Part shown: positions 8,136-18,312 of the stretch, piece after piece
Position numbering within the stretch: position 1 is the first letter of the stretch
Layout: the number at the start of each line of letters is the position of its first letter
From: Salinimicrobium sp. TH3
Lineage (GTDB): Bacteria > Bacteroidota > Bacteroidia > Flavobacteriales > Flavobacteriaceae
NCBI RefSeq assembly: GCF_026676115.1
Contig: NZ_JAPONB010000001.1
Span: 124,001-188,000 of the forward strand
Direction: 5' to 3'
Length of the DNA: 64,000 nt
Translations under genes and position numbers: made by a program
Notes under the pieces: model-generated
Told to the model about the DNA's origin: nothing
Seen by the model: the letters and a program-made list of their open reading frames with translations, nothing else
The model's database searches: none

Positions 8136-9722
8136 GTGAACGAATTCGCAGCACTTATAAGGGAACTTGACAGCACCAACAAAACCACGGTGAAGGTGGC
8201 GGCATTGACGCGCTATTTTCAACGGGTGCCCAATAAGGATAAAGTGTGGGCAATTGCAATCCTCTCGCACCGTCGTCCCCCAAGGCCGGTCAATACTACC
8301 CTGTTACGACAATTTGCAGCGGAACTTGCAAATATTCCCCTCTGGTTATTTGAGGAATCCTACCACATAGTTGGAGATCTCGCAGAAACTATTGCGCTGG
8401 TGATTCCCCCGGCAGAAGAATCCAGTGAGAAAAGCCTTAGCCAGTACCTGGAGGAAATGATCGACCTTAAAGCAGCTACCGAAGCCGAAAAGAAAGAATA
8501 TCTTCATGAAAATTGGGCTGCTCTAAATTATTATGAACGCTTTGTTTTTACCAAGCTTATAACTGGTAGTTTCAGGATAGGAGTGAGTCAGAAGCTAATG
8601 ACCCGCGCGCTTTCAAAAGCAACTGATATTGATGAGGATGTGTTGGCCTACAAGCTCATGGGCGACTGGGGCCCGCAAAAAATCACCTTCCAAAAACTCA
8701 TTTTAGAAGAGAATGAAGAAGATTTCCTTTCCAAACCTTATCCCTTCTACCTGGCCTATGCTATTGAGGTGGAACCGCGGGAGCTGGGAGATCCTTCAGA
8801 ATGGTCGGCCGAACATAAGTGGGATGGGATAAGATCCCAGGTGGTGATCCGGAATCGGGAGATCTTCGTGTGGAGCCGTGGCGAGGAACTGGTGACCGAT
8901 AAATACCCGGAGTTTTCGTCATTTTTAGAAGTTATTCCGGATGGAACTGTAATAGACGGGGAGATCCTCCCCTTTCCCGATGGGGAAATTGGAACTTTCA
9001 ATGACCTGCAAACCCGAATCGGCCGGAAAACAGTTTCCAAAGCTTTACTCAATAAAACACCCGTGATCCTGAAAGCTTATGACCTGCTGGAGTGGGAGGG
9101 AAAGGACATAAGAACATTACCTTATTCAAAACGTCGTAAAATACTCGAGGATTTGCATGACGAGGTAGATACTGAAGAATTGCCTTTTCACCTTTCCCAA
9201 ACTATTTCATTTACTGATTGGGAGGAGGCTGTTGCTGAACGGGAACGGGCGAGGGAGGTCAGGAGTGAAGGTTTGATGCTTAAACGTTGGGATTCGCCAT
9301 ACCTGGTGGGTAGAAAAAAGGGCGATTGGTGGAAATGGAAAGTAGAACCGCTTACAGTAGATGCTGTGCTCACGTATGCCATGCGCGGCCACGGCAGGCG
9401 CTCCAATCTTTTTACAGATTACACCTTTGCACTGTGGCAGGATGATGAGCTTGTTACTTTTGCAAAAGCATATTCCGGACTCACCGATGCGGAATTCCGG
9501 CAGGTAGATGCGTGGATCAAGAGGAACACCTTGGAGCGCTTTGGACCCGTACGGTCAGTAAAACCGGAATTGGTATTTGAGATCGCTTTTGAAGGCATAG
9601 CCGAATCGAAAAGACACAAAAGCGGCGTAGCCACCCGGTTCCCCCGAATCCTAAGATGGAGACAGGACAAGAAAATAGAAGAAGCAAATACAATAGAAGA
9701 ATTGAAGCAGTTGATCCATTAG
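8136..9722 (+). CDS. ATP-dependent DNA ligase (ligase-associated repair cluster)
   Basis: The 528-residue protein has an N-terminal helical DNA-binding domain (1-200). The adenylation domain carries the nucleotidyl lysine at K228 (EHKWDGIR), DGEIL near 273, and the EGLMLKRWDSPY and WWKWK motifs. A C-terminal OB domain ends in FEGIAESKRHKSGVATRFPRI. This is a bacterial LigB/LigC-like ATP ligase, additional to the replicative NAD ligase expected elsewhere. The start is a GTG at 8136. The 130 bases upstream are AT-rich and hold tandem CAATAAT words at about 8060-8090, so a separate promoter is possible. Confidence 0.93.
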   Translation: MNEFAALIRELDSTNKTTVKVAALTRYFQRVPNKDKVWAIAILSHRRPPRPVNTTLLRQFAAELANIPLWLFEESYHIVGDLAETIALVIPPAEESSEKSLSQYLEEMIDLKAATEAEKKEYLHENWAALNYYERFVFTKLITGSFRIGVSQKLMTRALSKATDIDEDVLAYKLMGDWGPQKITFQKLILEENEEDFLSKPYPFYLAYAIEVEPRELGDPSEWSAEHKWDGIRSQVVIRNREIFVWSRGEELVTDKYPEFSSFLEVIPDGTVIDGEILPFPDGEIGTFNDLQTRIGRKTVSKALLNKTPVILKAYDLLEWEGKDIRTLPYSKRRKILEDLHDEVDTEELPFHLSQTISFTDWEEAVAERERAREVRSEGLMLKRWDSPYLVGRKKGDWWKWKVEPLTVDAVLTYAMRGHGRRSNLFTDYTFALWQDDELVTFAKAYSGLTDAEFRQVDAWIKRNTLERFGPVRSVKPELVFEIAFEGIAESKRHKSGVATRFPRILRWRQDKKIEEANTIEELKQLIH

Positions 9723-9738: not shown

Positions 9739-9941
9739 GGACCACCCCGTCTCCGCTCCGCGGATCCACCCCTCCTTGAAATAAGGAGGGGTGCTTTGCC
9801 TGCAGCTAGCTGCAGGCAGTGTGTAGAATGGGAAACAAAGAATAAAGTTTGAAGAAGAATTCAAAATAGTAAAAAAAACAAAAGCTCCTTCCCTTGCTAA
9901 GGGAAGGTGGATCCGGCGAATAGCCGGAGACGGAAGGGTCC
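9739..9941. repeat. Palindromic element copy 1 (terminal inverted repeats), left of DUF559 pseudogene
   Basis: This is a 203-bp unit whose two ends are imperfect inverted repeats: the left end reads GGACCACCCCGTCTCCG, and the right end, reverse-complemented, reads GGACCCTTCCGTCTCCGG; both then run into GGATCCACC. Internal hairpins are CCCCTCCTT/AAGGAGGGG (9770-9792), TGCCTGCAG/CTGCAGGCA (9797-9818) and CTTCCCTT/AAGGGAAG. It begins 17 bases after the ligase stop. A second copy in the same orientation lies at 10346-10535. The form is that of a MITE- or REPIN-like non-autonomous element. Confidence 0.8.
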
Positions 9942-9982
9942 GTGCTGGAAACAAATCACCCTACCAAAAGACAAAGCTTGTT

Positions 9983-10378
9983 ATGAAAAAGAGAATCCAC
10001 AACAAAAAAAATCTCGAACCCTACCGCAAGAAACTCCGCCACCATGGAACTACTGCCGAGGCCTATCTGTGGACGCATTTGTAGCAAAAGAAGCTGGAGG
10101 GAAGGAAATTCAGGAGGCAGCACAGCATCCTTAACTTCATAGTCGATTTCTACTGCGCAGAAGAAAAGTTGGTTATAGAAGTCGACGGGCAGTATCATAT
10201 GAACCCAACCAATGAGGAAAAAGATGCGGCAAGAACTAAAAAATTAGAAGAATTTAACCTGATGGTGATCAGGTTTGAGAACAGAACAGTATTTGATAAT
10301 TTGGATTGGGTGCTGGAGGAGATAAAAAGAAATTTCAAAAACGACGGGCCACCCCGTCCTTCGGACACCCCTCCTTAA
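9983..10378 (+). pseudogene. DUF559 (Vsr-like) endonuclease, broken by an in-frame TAG
   Basis: From ATG 9983 the frame encodes the start of a DUF559 endonuclease (LEPYRKKLRHHGTTAEAYLW) and hits TAG at 10082-10084. It then continues in the same frame with the rest of the domain: KLEGRKFRRQHSI, VDFYCAEEKLVIEVDGQYH (catalytic D, E, D and H of the Vsr-like fold), then VIRFEN. Full length would be 131 residues, normal for the family, so one nonsense codon (probably once CAG or AAG) is the only lesion. The last 11 codons, including the TAA stop, lie inside the right-hand copy of the palindromic element. The gene and its two flanking repeats sit as a block between ligase and helicase. Confidence 0.85.
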
Positions 10379-10535
10379 AATAAGGAGGGGAGCTTTGGCT
10401 ACAGCTTGCTGGAGCCAGTGTATAGACTGGGAAATAAAGAATAAAGTTTGAAGAAGAATTATAAATGGTAGCACAAATAGCTCCTTCCCTTTTCCAGGGA
10501 AGGTGGCTCCGCCGCAGGCGGAGACGGAAGGGTCC
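10346..10535. repeat. Palindromic element copy 2, right of DUF559 pseudogene
   Basis: This 190-bp unit is a diverged direct copy of 9739-9941. It shares CACCCCTCCTT...AAGGAGGGG, a second hairpin (GGCTACAGC/GCTGGAGCC), the AATAAAGTTTGAAGAAGAAT core and the closing GAGACGGAAGGGTCC. It ends 15 bases before the helicase ATG and donates the stop codon of the DUF559 pseudogene. The strong hairpins could act as terminators or processing sites within the repair operon; that is inference. Confidence 0.8.
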
Positions 10536-10550
10536 AACCGGAGCACAAGC

Positions 10551-13028
10551 ATGAATAACAAACAACTCATAAAACTTGCCGACGACTGGTTCAAATCCCG
10601 GTCCTGGAAATCTTTTGCTTTTCAAAAGGAATCCTGGAAGGCATTTTTGGATGGTAAACACGGACTCCTTAATGCCCCAACGGGAAGCGGAAAGACCTAC
10701 GCCCTCTGGATTCCTATTGTGCTGGACTACATCAGGCAAAATCCAGATTATAAGACCAAACATAAACCCGGCCTTAAGGCTATCTGGATCACCCCGTTGC
10801 GGGCACTTTCGGTAGAAATCGAACAGGCGGCGAATCGGTTCGCCCAGGATATCGGTAGCGGACTCACAGTAGGGATCAGGACGGGAGATACTTCCCAGAA
10901 ATTACGTGCCGCACAGAAAAAACAAATGCCCGACCTGCTAATAACCACGCCCGAAAGTTTGCAGCTGCTACTCGCTTCAAAAGACTATGCAAAGACTTTT
11001 AAGAACCTTAATGCTATAGTCATTGATGAGTGGCACGAGCTGCTTGGGACAAAACGAGGAGTGCAGATCGAACTGGCTCTTTCCAGACTCAAAACTGTGG
11101 CTCCAAAAATGAAGATCTGGGGGATCTCTGCCACCATTGGTAATCTGCAGGAGGCGCGGGAAGTCCTGTTGGGTCCGGGATCGAAAGCCTTTGATAATTC
11201 GGTTTTGATCAGGGCCGATATTAAAAAGAAGATCACAGTGAAATCCATCATTCCGGAGAAGATGGAAACTTTCCCCTGGAGGGGACATTTGGGGCTGCAC
11301 CTCATTGATGAGGTGGTGCCAATCATCCGGAAGTCGAGAACGACGCTGCTCTTTACGAACACCCGTTCCCAATGTGAGATCTGGTTTCAAAAAATACTTC
11401 AGAAATATCCTGAATTCGCTGGGGAGCTGGCCATGCATCATGGCAGTATCAACAAAGAGACAAGGTTGTGGGTGGAGCAGGCGATTCGGGATGAGCAGCT
11501 AAAGGCGGTGGTGGCGACTTCCAGTCTAGATCTTGGAGTGGATTTCGCTCCGGTGGAGACGATCATCCAGATTGGCGGACCTAAAGGTGTGGCGCGATTT
11601 CTTCAAAGGGCAGGTCGAAGCGGACACCAGCCGGGAAAGGAGAGTGTGATCTACTTTTTGCCCACGCACGCCATGGAACTCATTGAGGCTTCTGCATTAC
11701 AAAAAGCTGTTAAGCACACTGTGGTGGAAGATCGTATCCCTTACCTCAATTCTTTTGATGTGCTGGTTCAGTATTTAACCACTCTTGCAGTTTCCGACGG
11801 ATTCTTTCCAAAGGATATTTATCCTGAAGTGAAATCCACTTTCTGCTATCAGGCACTTTCCGAAGAACAGTGGGAATGGCTGCTCAATTTCATCACGCAG
11901 GGGAGTCAAACGCTGCAGGCTTACGATGAATACAAAAAGGTAGAGATCGAAGAGAATGGACTCTTTAAGGTGAACAATAGGGCAGTTGCCATGCGGCACC
12001 GACTACAAATAGGAACCATTGTAAGCGACGCGGTGCTTGCGGTAAAATATCTTGGTGGCGGCTATATCGGCACAATTGAAGAATGGTTCATCTCAAAACT
12101 CAATCCTGGCGATGTCTTTACCTTTGCGGGCAAGAACCTTGAGCTGTACCAGATCAAGAATATGCAGGTGATCGTGAAGAAATCAAAGGTGAAAAATTCC
12201 CGCTTCCCCAGCTGGGCAGGCGGCAGGATGAGCTTTTCGGCACAAATGAGTGAGCTGCTTCGGGAGGAGATGTTTGTTGCTTCAGAAATTGAAGAAGCTT
12301 CTAATGCAGAAACTTCAACCGAACTCCAGGCGATGCATAACATTTTTCAGAGGCAAAAGAGAGAATCCATTATCCCCAAAAAAGATGAATTTCTAATCGA
12401 AACCTTTAAAACGCGCGAAGGATATCACGCTATTTTTTACCCTTTTGAGGGCCGGTTTGTTCATGAAGCCATGGCCAGTCTGCTCGCCTACCGGATAAGC
12501 TTACTGTCGCCCATTACTTTCTCTCTTGCCTTTAATGACTACGGATTCGAACTGCTTTCCGATCAGCAAATCGACATGCAGCAGGTGTTTGACAATGACC
12601 TTTTTTCTGCCGAATACCTCATGGATGATCTTCAGAAAAGTTTGAACTCGACTGAAATGGCCCGCAGGAAATTTCGGGATATTGCTGTCATCGCCGGAAT
12701 GGTCTTCACCGGATTTCCGAATAAGATGATCAAGACCAAGCATCTGCAGTCTAATTCCCAGCTACTTTTCAGCGTTTTCAGGGATTATGAACCGGACAAT
12801 TTATTGTTTCAGCAGGCGTTTAGAGAAACATTCGAGCATCAATTGGAGGAAGGAAGATTAAGATTGGCCATGGAACGCATTTCGGAACAGAAATTGGTTT
12901 GGAAACAATGCGAAAAACCCACACCTTTCGCCTTCCCGATCATTACCGACAGGATGCGTGAGAAATTATCTTCAGAAAAACTGGAGGACCGAATCAAAAA
13001 AATGATGGCTCAATGGGGAGACCTGTAG
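10551..13028 (+). CDS. Ligase-associated DNA damage response DEXH-box helicase (Lhr-like)
   Basis: The 825-residue SF2 helicase has Walker A APTGSGKT at 42-49, ITPLRALS (motif Ia), TTPESL, the DEWH box at 159-162 and SATIGN (motif III). In the second RecA domain it has VATSSLDLGVDF and QRAGRSGHQPG (motif VI). The long C-terminal Lhr-type region (about 400-825) is present. I start at ATG 10551, since upstream in-frame codons lie inside the palindromic element. By family (TIGR04121 type) it is a 3'-5' helicase working with the adjacent ligase, exonuclease and PdeM. Its 3' end comes within 10 bases of the pdeM ATG. Confidence 0.93.
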   Translation: MNNKQLIKLADDWFKSRSWKSFAFQKESWKAFLDGKHGLLNAPTGSGKTYALWIPIVLDYIRQNPDYKTKHKPGLKAIWITPLRALSVEIEQAANRFAQDIGSGLTVGIRTGDTSQKLRAAQKKQMPDLLITTPESLQLLLASKDYAKTFKNLNAIVIDEWHELLGTKRGVQIELALSRLKTVAPKMKIWGISATIGNLQEAREVLLGPGSKAFDNSVLIRADIKKKITVKSIIPEKMETFPWRGHLGLHLIDEVVPIIRKSRTTLLFTNTRSQCEIWFQKILQKYPEFAGELAMHHGSINKETRLWVEQAIRDEQLKAVVATSSLDLGVDFAPVETIIQIGGPKGVARFLQRAGRSGHQPGKESVIYFLPTHAMELIEASALQKAVKHTVVEDRIPYLNSFDVLVQYLTTLAVSDGFFPKDIYPEVKSTFCYQALSEEQWEWLLNFITQGSQTLQAYDEYKKVEIEENGLFKVNNRAVAMRHRLQIGTIVSDAVLAVKYLGGGYIGTIEEWFISKLNPGDVFTFAGKNLELYQIKNMQVIVKKSKVKNSRFPSWAGGRMSFSAQMSELLREEMFVASEIEEASNAETSTELQAMHNIFQRQKRESIIPKKDEFLIETFKTREGYHAIFYPFEGRFVHEAMASLLAYRISLLSPITFSLAFNDYGFELLSDQQIDMQQVFDNDLFSAEYLMDDLQKSLNSTEMARRKFRDIAVIAGMVFTGFPNKMIKTKHLQSNSQLLFSVFRDYEPDNLLFQQAFRETFEHQLEEGRLRLAMERISEQKLVWKQCEKPTPFAFPIITDRMREKLSSEKLEDRIKKMMAQWGDL

Positions 13029-13947: not shown

Positions 13948-14010
13948 TGAATTGCCTCAGCCTTTAGGCGAGGATCAGAGAAGAGGTAAGCAAAAGGGCT
14001 TTAGCCCAAT
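13948..14010. repeat. REP-like half unit overlapping the RAYT stop codon
   Basis: This is the right half of the REP-like unit: TGAATTGCCTCAGCC, a GCCTTTAGGC hairpin, then AGGGCTTTAGCCCAAT ending at 14010. Its end overlaps the 3' end of the transposase gene, so the last codons and the TAA of that gene are read from the palindrome. Confidence 0.75.
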
Positions 14011-14450
14011 TGTTCATCCTGGAATTTCTTAAAATTGTATTTTTTTATGAATTGCTCATATTCTTCCTGAAATGATTTCTTTCTGTGATGCTCTTCCTGA
14101 TTTTTAATATAGTCTCTTACTCTGTCAATATTAGATTCAGAAACAGAAACAGCGAAATAATCATTTTGCCATTCAAATCTTTCAGAAGTTAAATTGTTTT
14201 TGTTGATCCAATGAGAAGATTCTCCTTTGATCAAATTGATCACCTTTTGAATGGTTTGATCAACTCCTAAAGAGACAAGACAGTGACAATGGTCTGAATA
14301 CCCATTGACGAAATCTACAAATATTCCCTTTGATCTGGCATTTTCTGCTATATGCTGCCACACCTGCTTCCTGAGTTCTAAAGTTTTGAGATGAGGAACT
14401 CTATTTTTGGTGCTCCATACAAAATGGATGTAAATCTTTATGTGAGGCAT
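14001..14450 (-). CDS. REP-associated tyrosine transposase (RAYT, IS200/IS605-like TnpA)
   Basis: The 149-residue Y1-type HUH transposase carries the metal-binding HxH as H54-C55-H56 in SDHCHCLVS. The catalytic tyrosine is probably Y114 in VRDYIKNQEEHH, followed by KKSFQEEYEQF, typical of the Bacteroidota branch of the family. No large IS ends or TnpB are present. Instead it is surrounded by REP-like palindromes (GGGCTAAAGCCC), one of which supplies its stop codon, as expected for a domesticated RAYT. It appears intact. It is placed between pdeM and mfd, with no functional link to either. Confidence 0.88.
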   Translation of the reverse strand: MPHIKIYIHFVWSTKNRVPHLKTLELRKQVWQHIAENARSKGIFVDFVNGYSDHCHCLVSLGVDQTIQKVINLIKGESSHWINKNNLTSERFEWQNDYFAVSVSESNIDRVRDYIKNQEEHHRKKSFQEEYEQFIKKYNFKKFQDEQLG

Positions 14451-14937: not shown

Positions 14938-17900
14938 TTGAGTAAATCTTCTATTGCCCAAAGCTTTGCACAGTCTGCGCCACAGCAGGATCTGGGGAAA
15001 GCGCTTGCCCTGCCGCGAACTCATGTTGAACTCAAAGGCCTCGTTGGATCGGCACTTTCCTTTGTGGTGGCCAATGCTTTTGAGGAAGCCGAAAAGCCTT
15101 TTTTGCTGATCTTCAATGACAAAGAGGAGGCTGCCTATTATCTAAATGACCTCGAACAGCTGTTGGGCGATAAGAATGTGCTTTTCTACCCCGGAAGTTA
15201 TCGCCGGCCTTACCAACTGGAGGAGACTGATAACGCCAACGTACTTTTGCGGGCTGAGGTGCTTAACAGGATCAACTCCCGAAAGAAACCTGCTTTAATA
15301 ATTACCTATCCCGATGCCCTTTTTGAGAAGGTAGTGACACGGAAGGAACTCGAGAAAAACACGCTGAAGATCAAGGTCGGTGACGAACTTTCCATTGACT
15401 TTGTGAACGAAATCATGTTCGAGTACAAGTTTAAAAGAGTGGATTTTGTAACCGAACCCGGAGAATTTTCGGTGCGTGGGGGGATCCTGGATGTGTTTTC
15501 TTTCAGCAATGACGAACCGTACAGGATCGAGTTCTTCGGAGATGAGGTAGAGAGCATCAGGACCTTTGATGTGGAGACGCAGCTGTCGACAGATCAGGTG
15601 AAGAAGATCACGGTAATTCCAAATGTGGAGCACAAGCGGCTTCAGGAGGTGCGGGAGAGTTTTCTGAAATACATTTCAGAAAAAACGGTGATCTTCAGCA
15701 AGGATACAGAGCTGCTTTATGATCGCCTGGACAAACTCTTCAGCAAAGCCGAAGAAGCTTTTAAAGATCTTTCCGAAGAAATAAAGCATAACGAACCCGA
15801 AGAATTGTTCTGTAATTCGGCACTTTTGAAGGAGCAGATGCAGGAGTATTCACTGGTGGTAACGAATTCCCGTCATCCTGAACTTGTTTCAGGATCTAGA
15901 CCGGAGACAATAGCATTCAGTACTAAACCGCAACCATCCTTCAACAAGAATTTTGAGCTGCTTATTCAGAATCTGAGGGAGAATACGGAAGATGGTTATA
16001 CGAATTATATTTTCTGCGTAAGCGAGCAGCAGGCCAAGCGTTTCCATGACATTTTTGACGATATGGAGGGAGAGGTGAAGTACAAAACCGTGGTGCTTTC
16101 CATGTATCAGGGGTTTATTGATGAGGCTTCAAAAATGATTTGCTACACAGATCACCAGATCTTTGAGCGCTACCATAAATTCCACCTCAAGAACGGTTAT
16201 GCTAAAAAGCAGGCGATCACGCTGAAGGAATTGACCAACCTGGAAGTCGGCGATTATGTAACTCATATCGACCACGGAATAGGGAAGTTCGGCGGACTCC
16301 AAAAGATCGATGTGGAGGGCAAAAAACAGGAAGCGATCAAACTTATTTATGGCGAACGCGATATTCTGTACCTGAGCATCCACTCGCTGCACAAGATCTC
16401 AAAATACAACGGCAAGGACGGGAAGCCGCCTAAGATCTATAAACTGGGCAGCAACGCCTGGAAGAATCTGAAACAAAAGACCAAGGCGCGGGTAAAACAT
16501 ATCGCCTTCAACCTTATCGAATTATACGCCAAGCGCAGGCTGCAGAAGGGCTTTGCCTATGGTCCGGATTCCTATTTACAGCACGAGCTCGAGGCCTCTT
16601 TCCTTTACGAAGACACGCCCGACCAAAGTACCGCCACAGCCGATGTGAAGGCCGATATGGAAAATGAACGGCCCATGGACCGCCTGGTGTGCGGGGATGT
16701 TGGCTTCGGAAAGACAGAGGTTGCCATAAGAGCAGCATTTAAAGCAGTAGATAACGGGAAACAGGTGGCTGTGCTGGTGCCCACAACAATTTTGGCCTTT
16801 CAGCATTACAAGACCTTTACCGAACGCCTGAAGGATTTCCCCGTTACCGTCGATTACCTGAACCGCTTTAGAACGGCAAAGGAAAGAAGGACCACTTTGG
16901 AAGAGTTGGAGAACGGAAAGGTGGATATCGTCATTGGAACGCATAAACTGGTCAATAAGGCGGTAAAATTCAAAGATCTGGGGCTGCTGGTTGTGGATGA
17001 GGAGCAGAAATTCGGGGTGGCTGTAAAGGACAAGCTGAAGACCATCAAAGAAAATGTTGATACCCTCACATTAACCGCAACGCCCATTCCGCGTACATTG
17101 CAGTTCAGTTTAATGGCTGCAAGGGATCTTTCTACCATTACTACTGCGCCGCCAAACCGGTATCCTATTGAGTCGCACGTGATAAGATTCTCAGAAGAGA
17201 CCATTCGCGACGCGATCTCATATGAGATTCAGCGGGGTGGGCAGGTGTTCTTTATCCATAACCGGGTGGAGAACATAAAGGAAGTCGCCGGAATGATACA
17301 GCGCCTGGTGCCCGATGCGAAGATCGGGATAGGGCATGGGCAAATGGAAGGGAAAAAGCTGGAGACTTTGATGCTGAAGTTCATGAATGGAGAGTTCGAC
17401 GTGCTGGTTTCGACCACCATTGTTGAAAGCGGACTCGATGTACCAAACGCAAATACCATTTTCATTAATAACGCCAATAACTTCGGACTCTCAGATCTGC
17501 ACCAAATGCGGGGACGTGTCGGCCGAAGCAACAAAAAAGCCTTCTGCTATTTCATTACTCCGCCATATTCTGCCATGACAGATGATGCCCGGAAGCGAAT
17601 TACTGCCCTGGAGCAATTCAGTGAACTGGGAAGCGGATTCAACATTGCGATGAAAGATCTGGAAATTCGTGGCGCGGGAGACCTTCTAGGAGGGGAACAA
17701 TCTGGGTTCATCAATGAAATAGGCTTTGATACTTACCAGAAGATCCTGAATGAAGCCATCGAGGAACTGAAGGAAAATGAATTCAGGGATCTTTATGAAG
17801 GGAAGGAGACAGAAGATAAAGAATACGTGAAGGATACGCAGATCGACACCGATTTCGAATTGCTGTTCCCGGATGACTACATCAACAACATTTCTGAAAG

Positions 17901-18312
17901 GCTGAACCTCTACACCCAGCTCAATAACCTGAAAACTGAAGAAGAGCTTCAGAAATTTGAGGCCGAACTAATCGACAGGTTTGGAGAACTACCTGCAGAG
18001 GCTGAAGATCTGCTTAACAGCGTCCGTATCAAGTGGATCGCTTCCAAGATCGGGCTCGAGAAGATCGTGATGAAGCAGGGCAAACTGATAGGTTATTTTA
18101 TTGCCGACCAGCAGTCACTTTTCTACCAGAGCAAAGCTTTTACACGAGTACTGCAATACGTGCAAACGCATCCGCACAGTTGTACCATGAAAGAAAAGAA
18201 AACCCGCAGCGGGTTGAGATTGTTGCTGACTTTCGAAAAAGTAACTTCTGTAGATAAAGCTTTAAAAGTGCTTCAGCCACTGGATGTGAAGGTGGCGGTG
18301 GAAGCCCCCTAA
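14938..18312 (+). CDS. mfd: Transcription-repair coupling factor Mfd
   Basis: The 1124-residue protein has the full Mfd layout: a UvrB-like N-terminal module (1-270), the RNA polymerase-interacting domain near 430-500 (VGDYVTHIDHGIGKFGGL), and the translocase with Walker A GDVGFGKT at 586-593, DEEQ, TATPIPRTLQ and QMRGRVGRS. The C-terminal TRCF domain is also present. It releases stalled RNA polymerase and recruits UvrABC. The start is TTG 14938, 18 bases after a TATCTTTG box; no ATG lies nearby that would keep the N terminus. Residues 312-320 (RHPELVSGS) are encoded by an inserted palindrome, in the variable linker after the UvrB-like region. A strong terminator follows. Confidence 0.96.
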   Translation: MSKSSIAQSFAQSAPQQDLGKALALPRTHVELKGLVGSALSFVVANAFEEAEKPFLLIFNDKEEAAYYLNDLEQLLGDKNVLFYPGSYRRPYQLEETDNANVLLRAEVLNRINSRKKPALIITYPDALFEKVVTRKELEKNTLKIKVGDELSIDFVNEIMFEYKFKRVDFVTEPGEFSVRGGILDVFSFSNDEPYRIEFFGDEVESIRTFDVETQLSTDQVKKITVIPNVEHKRLQEVRESFLKYISEKTVIFSKDTELLYDRLDKLFSKAEEAFKDLSEEIKHNEPEELFCNSALLKEQMQEYSLVVTNSRHPELVSGSRPETIAFSTKPQPSFNKNFELLIQNLRENTEDGYTNYIFCVSEQQAKRFHDIFDDMEGEVKYKTVVLSMYQGFIDEASKMICYTDHQIFERYHKFHLKNGYAKKQAITLKELTNLEVGDYVTHIDHGIGKFGGLQKIDVEGKKQEAIKLIYGERDILYLSIHSLHKISKYNGKDGKPPKIYKLGSNAWKNLKQKTKARVKHIAFNLIELYAKRRLQKGFAYGPDSYLQHELEASFLYEDTPDQSTATADVKADMENERPMDRLVCGDVGFGKTEVAIRAAFKAVDNGKQVAVLVPTTILAFQHYKTFTERLKDFPVTVDYLNRFRTAKERRTTLEELENGKVDIVIGTHKLVNKAVKFKDLGLLVVDEEQKFGVAVKDKLKTIKENVDTLTLTATPIPRTLQFSLMAARDLSTITTAPPNRYPIESHVIRFSEETIRDAISYEIQRGGQVFFIHNRVENIKEVAGMIQRLVPDAKIGIGHGQMEGKKLETLMLKFMNGEFDVLVSTTIVESGLDVPNANTIFINNANNFGLSDLHQMRGRVGRSNKKAFCYFITPPYSAMTDDARKRITALEQFSELGSGFNIAMKDLEIRGAGDLLGGEQSGFINEIGFDTYQKILNEAIEELKENEFRDLYEGKETEDKEYVKDTQIDTDFELLFPDDYINNISERLNLYTQLNNLKTEEELQKFEAELIDRFGELPAEAEDLLNSVRIKWIASKIGLEKIVMKQGKLIGYFIADQQSLFYQSKAFTRVLQYVQTHPHSCTMKEKKTRSGLRLLLTFEKVTSVDKALKVLQPLDVKVAVEAP
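15871..15898. repeat. In-frame palindromic insert within mfd (RHPELVSGS type)
   Basis: The DNA CGTCATCCTGAAC-TTG-TTTCAGGATCT forms a hairpin (ATCCTGAA paired with TTTCAGGAT) and is read as RHPELVSGS, a peptide known from palindromic elements inserted in bacterial genes. It keeps the reading frame and falls in a linker rather than a catalytic domain. The following residues (RPETIAFSTKPQPS) also look like added linker. Confidence 0.8.

Follow-up and report, generated by a model that had tools for sequence, protein, structure and literature searches.

DUF559 nuclease genes are associated with C-rich palindromic repeats and may form a selfish system with them

Our data support DUF559 genes as partners of palindromic repeats, found together far above chance. 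Repeats and proteins co-vary, the number of repeats follows the presence of the gene, genomic junctions occur in full, solo and empty states, and the protein is homologous to nucleases. This co-occurrence and joint change in many bacteria points to an undescribed kind of selfish element. We consider it probable that the repeat, called E in the following, and DUF559 make up one selfish system, i.e., REP-like repeats with a Vsr-type nuclease partner that are spread by cut-and-repair. More tentatively, and with confidence a little short of even, we suggest a new class of mobile element, in which C-rich REP-like hairpins of several phyla would be mobilised by the Vsr/EDxHD nuclease DUF559 and not by a transposase.

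The E locus was analyzed in a 64-kb stretch of DNA (the window) and comprises the following features.

8136–9722, plus strand: DNA ligase (name from the earlier reading), left neighbour; open reading frame with orthologues found, used for the junction comparison
9739–9941, plus strand: left copy of element E, 203 bp; its folding beats all 200 shuffles
9739–9777, plus strand: left terminal inverted repeat of left E; C-box plus half-hairpins
9767–9793, unstranded: hairpin CACCCCTCC..GGAGGGGTG of left E; folding and hairpin filter
9797–9818, unstranded: central palindrome of left E; minus-strand self-match and folding
9887–9907, unstranded: hairpin CCTTCCCTT..AAGGGAAGG of left E; folding and hairpin filter
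9899–9941, minus strand: right terminal inverted repeat of left E; pairs with 9739–9777 as reverse complement
9983–10378, plus strand: DUF559 (Vsr-like nuclease) gene, PF04480; stop inside right E
10342–10535 (start approximate), plus strand: right copy of element E, about 190 bp
10368–10390, unstranded: hairpin CCCCTCC..GGAGGGG of right E; folding and hairpin filter
10483–10503, unstranded: hairpin CCTTCCCTT..AGGGAAGG of right E; folding and hairpin filter
10551–13028, plus strand: DNA helicase (name from the earlier reading), right neighbour; open reading frame, N-terminus located in relatives

The direct E copies share 83% identity over element positions 29–203 (E-value 3.9e-45 in a search of the own genome), in agreement with the original prediction that two direct copies bracket a DUF559 gene. 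Imperfect terminal inverted repeats, also part of that prediction, were confirmed for left E (39 vs 43 bases), which is built from an outer C-box, hairpins, a central palindrome and then a second end hairpin, related but different. Folding z-scores against 200 shuffles were −9.1 for left and −5.4 for right E, and none of the shuffles was better. Four hairpins in the whole window passed a filter for a stem of 7 or more with a C-rich arm, all of them within the two E copies. In its own genome, E yielded seven matches at an E-value of at most 0.001, i.e., the two copies themselves, one self-palindrome and four partial matches on C15 and C2; E copies are few in this genome. An Rfam search with ten DUF559 loci returned nothing at the gathering threshold.

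The DUF559 gene of the window matched PF04480 with an E-value of 1.1e-31 and 110.5 bits at a cut-off of 20.6. Its last codons and the stop (TAA, 10376–10378) lie within the right copy, as had been noted before. An in-frame TAG at 10082–10084 that interrupts the gene had been overlooked. The window copy is hence a pseudogene, unless the TAG base is a sequencing error; intact orthologues are present in the genus. The distance of 15 bp between the block and the helicase ATG (10551) was given correctly, whereas the gap to the ligase is 16 bp and not 17 bp. With regard to known defence systems, PADLOC gave weak matches only.

From the genus and the family, we assembled 75 stand-alone DUF559 genes, i.e., near-complete matches in open frames of at most 220 aa. 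Partial and weak hits were excluded, the truncated loci L033 and L036 were left out of the flank test and L024 was rescored. Direct or inverted similarity between 450-bp flanks served as flank score, and the scores at 2268 control positions in 18 genomes set the threshold (99th percentile). The original prediction had raised the idea that DUF559 genes occur beside repeats far above chance, and this was borne out: 63 of the 75 stand-alone genes had flank repeats above threshold, compared with 1.6% of the control positions and with 2 of 86 control genes of 90–220 aa. A score of at least 20 was reached by 57 of 75 stand-alone genes and by none of the 86 control genes. When we subtracted four loci that score through repeated coding sequence, 59 of 71 genes passed, in 43 of 48 genomes. 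Twelve of the 75 genes missed the threshold, including two own-genome genes with C-rich repeats nearby. DUF559s in large open frames passed in 5 of 21 cases.

Direct E copies around the DUF559 gene were a common arrangement. Beside an intact DUF559 gene of the own genome, we observed three close and one weaker tandem copies of a 137-bp C-rich repeat (L009, 975–1519), and a regular array of 104-bp units was seen in G144. At three loci (L110, L115 and L131) DUF559 genes lie between repeated coding fragments, presumably DUF6090-like, and L115 has two identical DUF559 copies 1.4 kb apart.

The ligase protein was searched in 40 relatives and matched in 19; the helicase start was located in 18 of these 19 loci, and the intergenic DNA between ligase and helicase was read in 14. 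E-gene-E is present in nine of the ten genus genomes that have the junction, the own genome included. The tenth (G006) lacks the DUF559 gene and has a single E. In three other genera (G012, G021, G024) ligase and helicase are separated by 2 to 7 bp and E is absent, and a fourth (G022) has an unrelated gene in this place. In G007 and G008, genus genomes that are about 75% complete, a ligase match was absent. Two of the nine junction DUF559 genes are broken, with in-frame stops at different places (G000, G004). In the ligase tree, where some nodes are weak, the carriers G002 and G001 are nearest the outgroup and the solo-E genome G006 is nested among carriers, which argues for gene loss in G006 and against a late insertion. 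Most likely, G006 lost its DUF559 gene through recombination between both Es. Insertion at the ligase–helicase junction thus predates most of the genus. Everything observed at this main locus is explained by vertical inheritance together with a single deletion. The block, which looked like a unit that moved in the original description, is present in nine of the ten genus genomes with the junction and is not a recent arrival here.

The class-4 DUF559 gene of the own genome lies between genes that we named, by eye, as methyltransferase and kynureninase. Across nine genomes, this junction contains a DUF559 gene in three (G000, G005, G006); by eye, G001 has a solo E and G011 an E accompanied by a decayed gene, whereas G010 and G002 are empty and G009 and G003 carry an unrelated gene. 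At the respective loci of the latter two (L356 and L359), a small gene, which we take to encode a four-helix-bundle protein, stands in the place of DUF559 amid other short GGCCATTAGCC-type repeats. A third DUF559 class occupies three different sites across five genus genomes, as judged by 1.5-kb flanks. From the full, solo and empty junction states together with this third class, we conclude that DUF559 units come and go. Target-site duplications were not evident by eye at the ligase–helicase and methyltransferase–kynureninase junctions.

DUF559 also occurs in frame with other genes. Nine of the 21 large-frame DUF559s of genus and family lie inside leuS and five inside metH; the remaining ones are found at the N-terminal end of hemD (six) and the C-terminal end of hisD (one). 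For seven of these hosts, and for an additional metH case of a phylum-wide search, the identity was confirmed by Pfam, the others being read from flanks; fusion loci in Bacteroidota include L042, L015, L055 and L045. By eye, the insertion site looks constant within leuS, and likewise within metH, and short linkers at the in-frame copies look repeat-coded. In the DUF559 tree, leuS copies are paraphyletic to metH, and metH copies and hemD copies form their own clades, which fits site-bound lineages, either by descent or by homing. Fusion hosts in other groups were HsdR, Type ISP, MmeI and Eco57I genes. The Pfam matches of 14 large-frame proteins contained no intein families.

An AlphaFold2 model of the read-through window protein had a pLDDT of 82. 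Its structure matches were, in this order, 3hrl, an endonuclease-like protein from Neisseria gonorrhoeae, the catalytic domain of I-Bth0305I (3r3p), and then AbaSI and Vsr, with Foldseek E-values of 7e-5 for 3r3p and 0.017 for Vsr (1cw0). The DUF559 sequence profile matched 3hrl at 3e-30 and 3r3p at 2e-5. According to the model, the nearest fold of known biology is that of the homing endonuclease (3r3p), whose family we take to be EDxHD. DUF559 resembles I-Bth0305I in catalytic-domain fold and profile, in having filled and empty alleles and in its copies inside conserved genes. In contrast to I-Bth0305I, it sits between its own dispersed repeats, apparently without intron or intein, and its in-frame copies are retained in the protein.

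Vsr and Caulobacter VsrA are alike to DUF559 in fold, with four active-site residues at matching spacing: the invariant E15, D44, D57 and H61 of DUF559 are spaced like E73, D102, D115 and H119, the active-site residues proposed for VsrA in the available passages (PMC12907096), and the fifth proposed residue, D124, has no invariant DUF559 partner at matching spacing. VsrA is itself a DUF559 protein, for which these passages propose a role in mismatch repair with a methyltransferase; it differs in this role, and repeats are unmentioned in the passages (PMC12907096). Another likeness is found in RAYT enzymes and their REPs. In PMC2817692, palindromic repeats flank the RAYT gene, change with the enzyme and are abundant where it is present, and evidence of these kinds linked RAYTs to REPs; DUF559, too, is flanked by its palindromic repeats, which co-evolve with it and whose abundance follows the enzyme. 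In contrast, DUF559 is a Vsr-type nuclease (PF04480) whereas RAYT is an HUH tyrosine transposase (Y1_Tnp, PF01797), and the DUF559 repeats are, by eye, C-rich hairpins with an outer C-box whereas REPs are GTAG-tagged at the foot. Because the enzyme is unrelated to RAYT, the DUF559 system is not a REPtron member despite its like anatomy.

Between genera, flank similarity tracked protein identity, with a Mantel r of 0.574 for 67 loci and 2043 pairs from which runs of N and coding repeats (L110, L115, L131) had been removed. The largest r in 2000 permutations was 0.134, and none reached the observed value. Strong repeat matches made up 1% of pairs at 30–40% protein identity and 54% of pairs above 60%. 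Moreover, where distant DUF559 paralogues share one genome, 30 of 37 members had repeats that resembled those beside the closest protein relative from another genus more than those of the paralogue; for six the paralogue was nearer, and one was a tie (binomial p = 7e-5, the members being not fully independent).

For repeat copy numbers, 149 family genomes, nearly one per genus, were searched with a hairpin-plus-box pattern that covers one group of repeat classes. It gave 296 matches in 29 genomes, and the reversed control pattern gave none. The 40 genomes with a stand-alone DUF559 gene, a few of these genes being broken, held 281 of the 296 matches. At least two dispersed copies, counting those that adjoin the DUF559 gene itself, were present in 17 of these 40 genomes compared with 1 of 109 without the gene (Fisher p = 1.4e-10, kinship ignored). 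Any copy was found in 22 of 40 vs 7 of 109 genomes, and at least five copies in 11 genomes with the gene vs one without. The exception with at least two copies and no stand-alone gene, G057, carries a metH copy and, where a contig ends, a piece of DUF559. A looser count, which also took six genomes with broken, ambiguous or contig-end matches as carriers, gave 18 of 46 vs 0 of 103; two of these six, G049 and G089, are hemD fusions. A second repeat pattern was narrow, with matches in 3 of 149 genomes, each of which has a stand-alone gene. Many repeats of the richest genomes lie far from any DUF559 gene. The simplest reading of co-specificity and copy number in the family is that the spread of E is helped by the nuclease.

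We infer that E is cut, copied by repair and mobilised in trans, and that it gave rise to the linkers. DUF559 would recognise its own repeat E and probably cut solo E; repair of the cut E from an E-gene-E copy would then install the gene between two Es, in a process akin to intron homing with E serving as the flanking homology. Recombination between the direct Es would delete the gene, and one E would remain. Small two-ended Es, i.e., outer C-box, hairpin, spacer, hairpin and outer G-box, could spread in trans, so that a genome may hold many Es of the class matching its nuclease. In-frame landings, inside leuS and metH or at the ends of hemD and hisD, may persist as fusions with repeat-coded linkers.

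In cyanobacteria, a related pattern was counted in 145 genomes that belong to the same class as a Cyanosarcina genome, and 51 of them carry the gene. The median repeat density was 5.4 per Mb with DUF559 vs 0.42 without; for genomes of at least 4 Mb, the densities were 5.7 vs 1.6 (p = 0.0045). The link is weaker here and has exceptions. Among 76 genomes without stand-alone or strong large-frame DUF559, 12 have at least 20 repeats and six at least 50, the repeat-rich exceptions being G508 (541 repeats and a broken DUF559), G498 (366), G493 (170), G403 (61), and G472 and G474 (53 each). They count against a strict repeat–nuclease rule; either the repeats persist after the gene is gone, or they are spread by something else. 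Such repeat-rich genomes without the gene, as well as the homing-endonuclease fold, would fit a DUF559 that acts as a homing parasite, cutting and occupying repeats but leaving their spread to another enzyme, e.g., a tyrosine transposase or an unknown factor. We regard this as unlikely, given that at least two copies occurred in a single one of the 109 family genomes without a stand-alone gene vs 17 of 40 with it, and that the Y1 transposase of the window has repeats of another type and no E-like C-rich hairpins.

Beyond the family, 53 of 80 named relatives' loci were not named Flavobacteriaceae, and 36 of these 53 beat all 100 shuffles, a count that includes large-frame cases and a few repeats, such as those of L233 and L249, that are not C-rich by eye. 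They include loci from Hymenobacter, Pontibacter, Brocadia, Nitrospirae, Chloroflexota, Desulfobacterales, Uhrbacteria and Scytonema. A control in which flanks were exchanged between loci was passed by 35 of the 71 named loci with stand-alone genes and 2 of the 9 with large frames. Its thresholds (22.5 and 23) are inflated because repeats are common to several loci; 16 of the other 27 named loci passed this control. Among the best-scoring loci of the phylum-wide search, which are not a random sample, 13 of 16 stand-alone and 8 of 10 large-frame loci beat the shuffles, and 3 of 29 had a flank that was too short. The best-scoring loci of the cyanobacterial search, likewise not a random sample, did so in 15 of 20 stand-alone and 9 of 10 large-frame cases. 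Many repeats have a common plan, a C-box followed by a CCCC...GGGG hairpin, and solo elements are often built as inverted doublets whose spacing recurs. At 51 loci with a motif on both sides, both boxes faced the gene in 30 and pointed away in 11, and the orientation was mixed in 10, at least two loci occurring in two of the three sets.

Inverted hairpin doublets with recurring spacing and boxes that face the gene on both sides (30 of 51 loci) would also suit a RAYT-like process, in which DUF559 nicks extruded or single-stranded hairpins and moves E as a single-stranded transposon. This appears rather improbable to us, as Vsr and I-Bth0305I, whose fold DUF559 shares, are duplex-DNA nucleases and not HUH enzymes; to our knowledge, tyrosine chemistry is unexpected for the DUF559 fold families. 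Based on the model, cut-and-repair copying would be at least as likely as RAYT-like single-strand processing. We give very little credence to DUF559 as a Vsr-like repair nuclease near which repeats gather as terminators, replication barriers or regulators: Caulobacter VsrA, as portrayed in the available passages of PMC12907096, speaks for it, whereas co-specificity between genera and within genomes, solo and empty sites at both junctions and the many repeats far from DUF559 in the richest genomes speak against it. Chance local duplication without other copies, which the few copies of the E class in the own genome might suggest, is ruled out for practical purposes by E at the same junction in ten genus genomes and by the wider association elsewhere.

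In a literature search, which lay largely outside subscription papers, no title or abstract linked DUF559 to repeats. That some REP families have no known enzyme is described as an open question in PMC3733652; its CGTC repeats are not those found here, but they raise the same question. If DUF559 is indeed the enzyme that mobilises the C-rich families, many orphan palindromic repeats would be provided with the enzyme that they lack. A domain of unknown function would thereby acquire a role, and a C-rich repeat class of many environmental bacteria an origin. Moreover, this would explain the nuclease domains fused in frame within leuS and metH and onto hemD and hisD, and would give access to a small nuclease whose natural target bears a hairpin. 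The in-frame copies in housekeeping genes would be a natural experiment in which selfish DNA turns into part of a protein.

Two further kinds of repeat were seen. CGTC-tagged REPs, in the available text of PMC3733652, are short palindromes that also lie inside genes and lack a dedicated transposase; they differ from E in stem and tag. We rejected them as members of the same family, with the CGTC palindrome in none of the 80 named DUF559 loci; a one-sided CGTC motif was present in 4 of 80, and a CGTC-like palindrome was seen upstream at a single locus of the family (L063). At 14001–14450 on the minus strand, the window encodes an IS200-like Y1 transposase (PF01797; REP-associated model below cut-off) with flank scores of IR 21 and DR 37.5 and its own GGGCTAAAGCCC-type hairpins. 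It was discarded as a partner of E, since its flanks repeat the GGGCTAAAGCCC hairpin and hold no C-rich hairpin, and probably constitutes a REP-transposase unit of its own, at a distance of about 3.5 kb from the E locus. Finally, a CGTC-type palindrome at 15871–15897 is read in frame (peptide RHPELVSGS) inside the open reading frame 14938–18312, presumably mfd.
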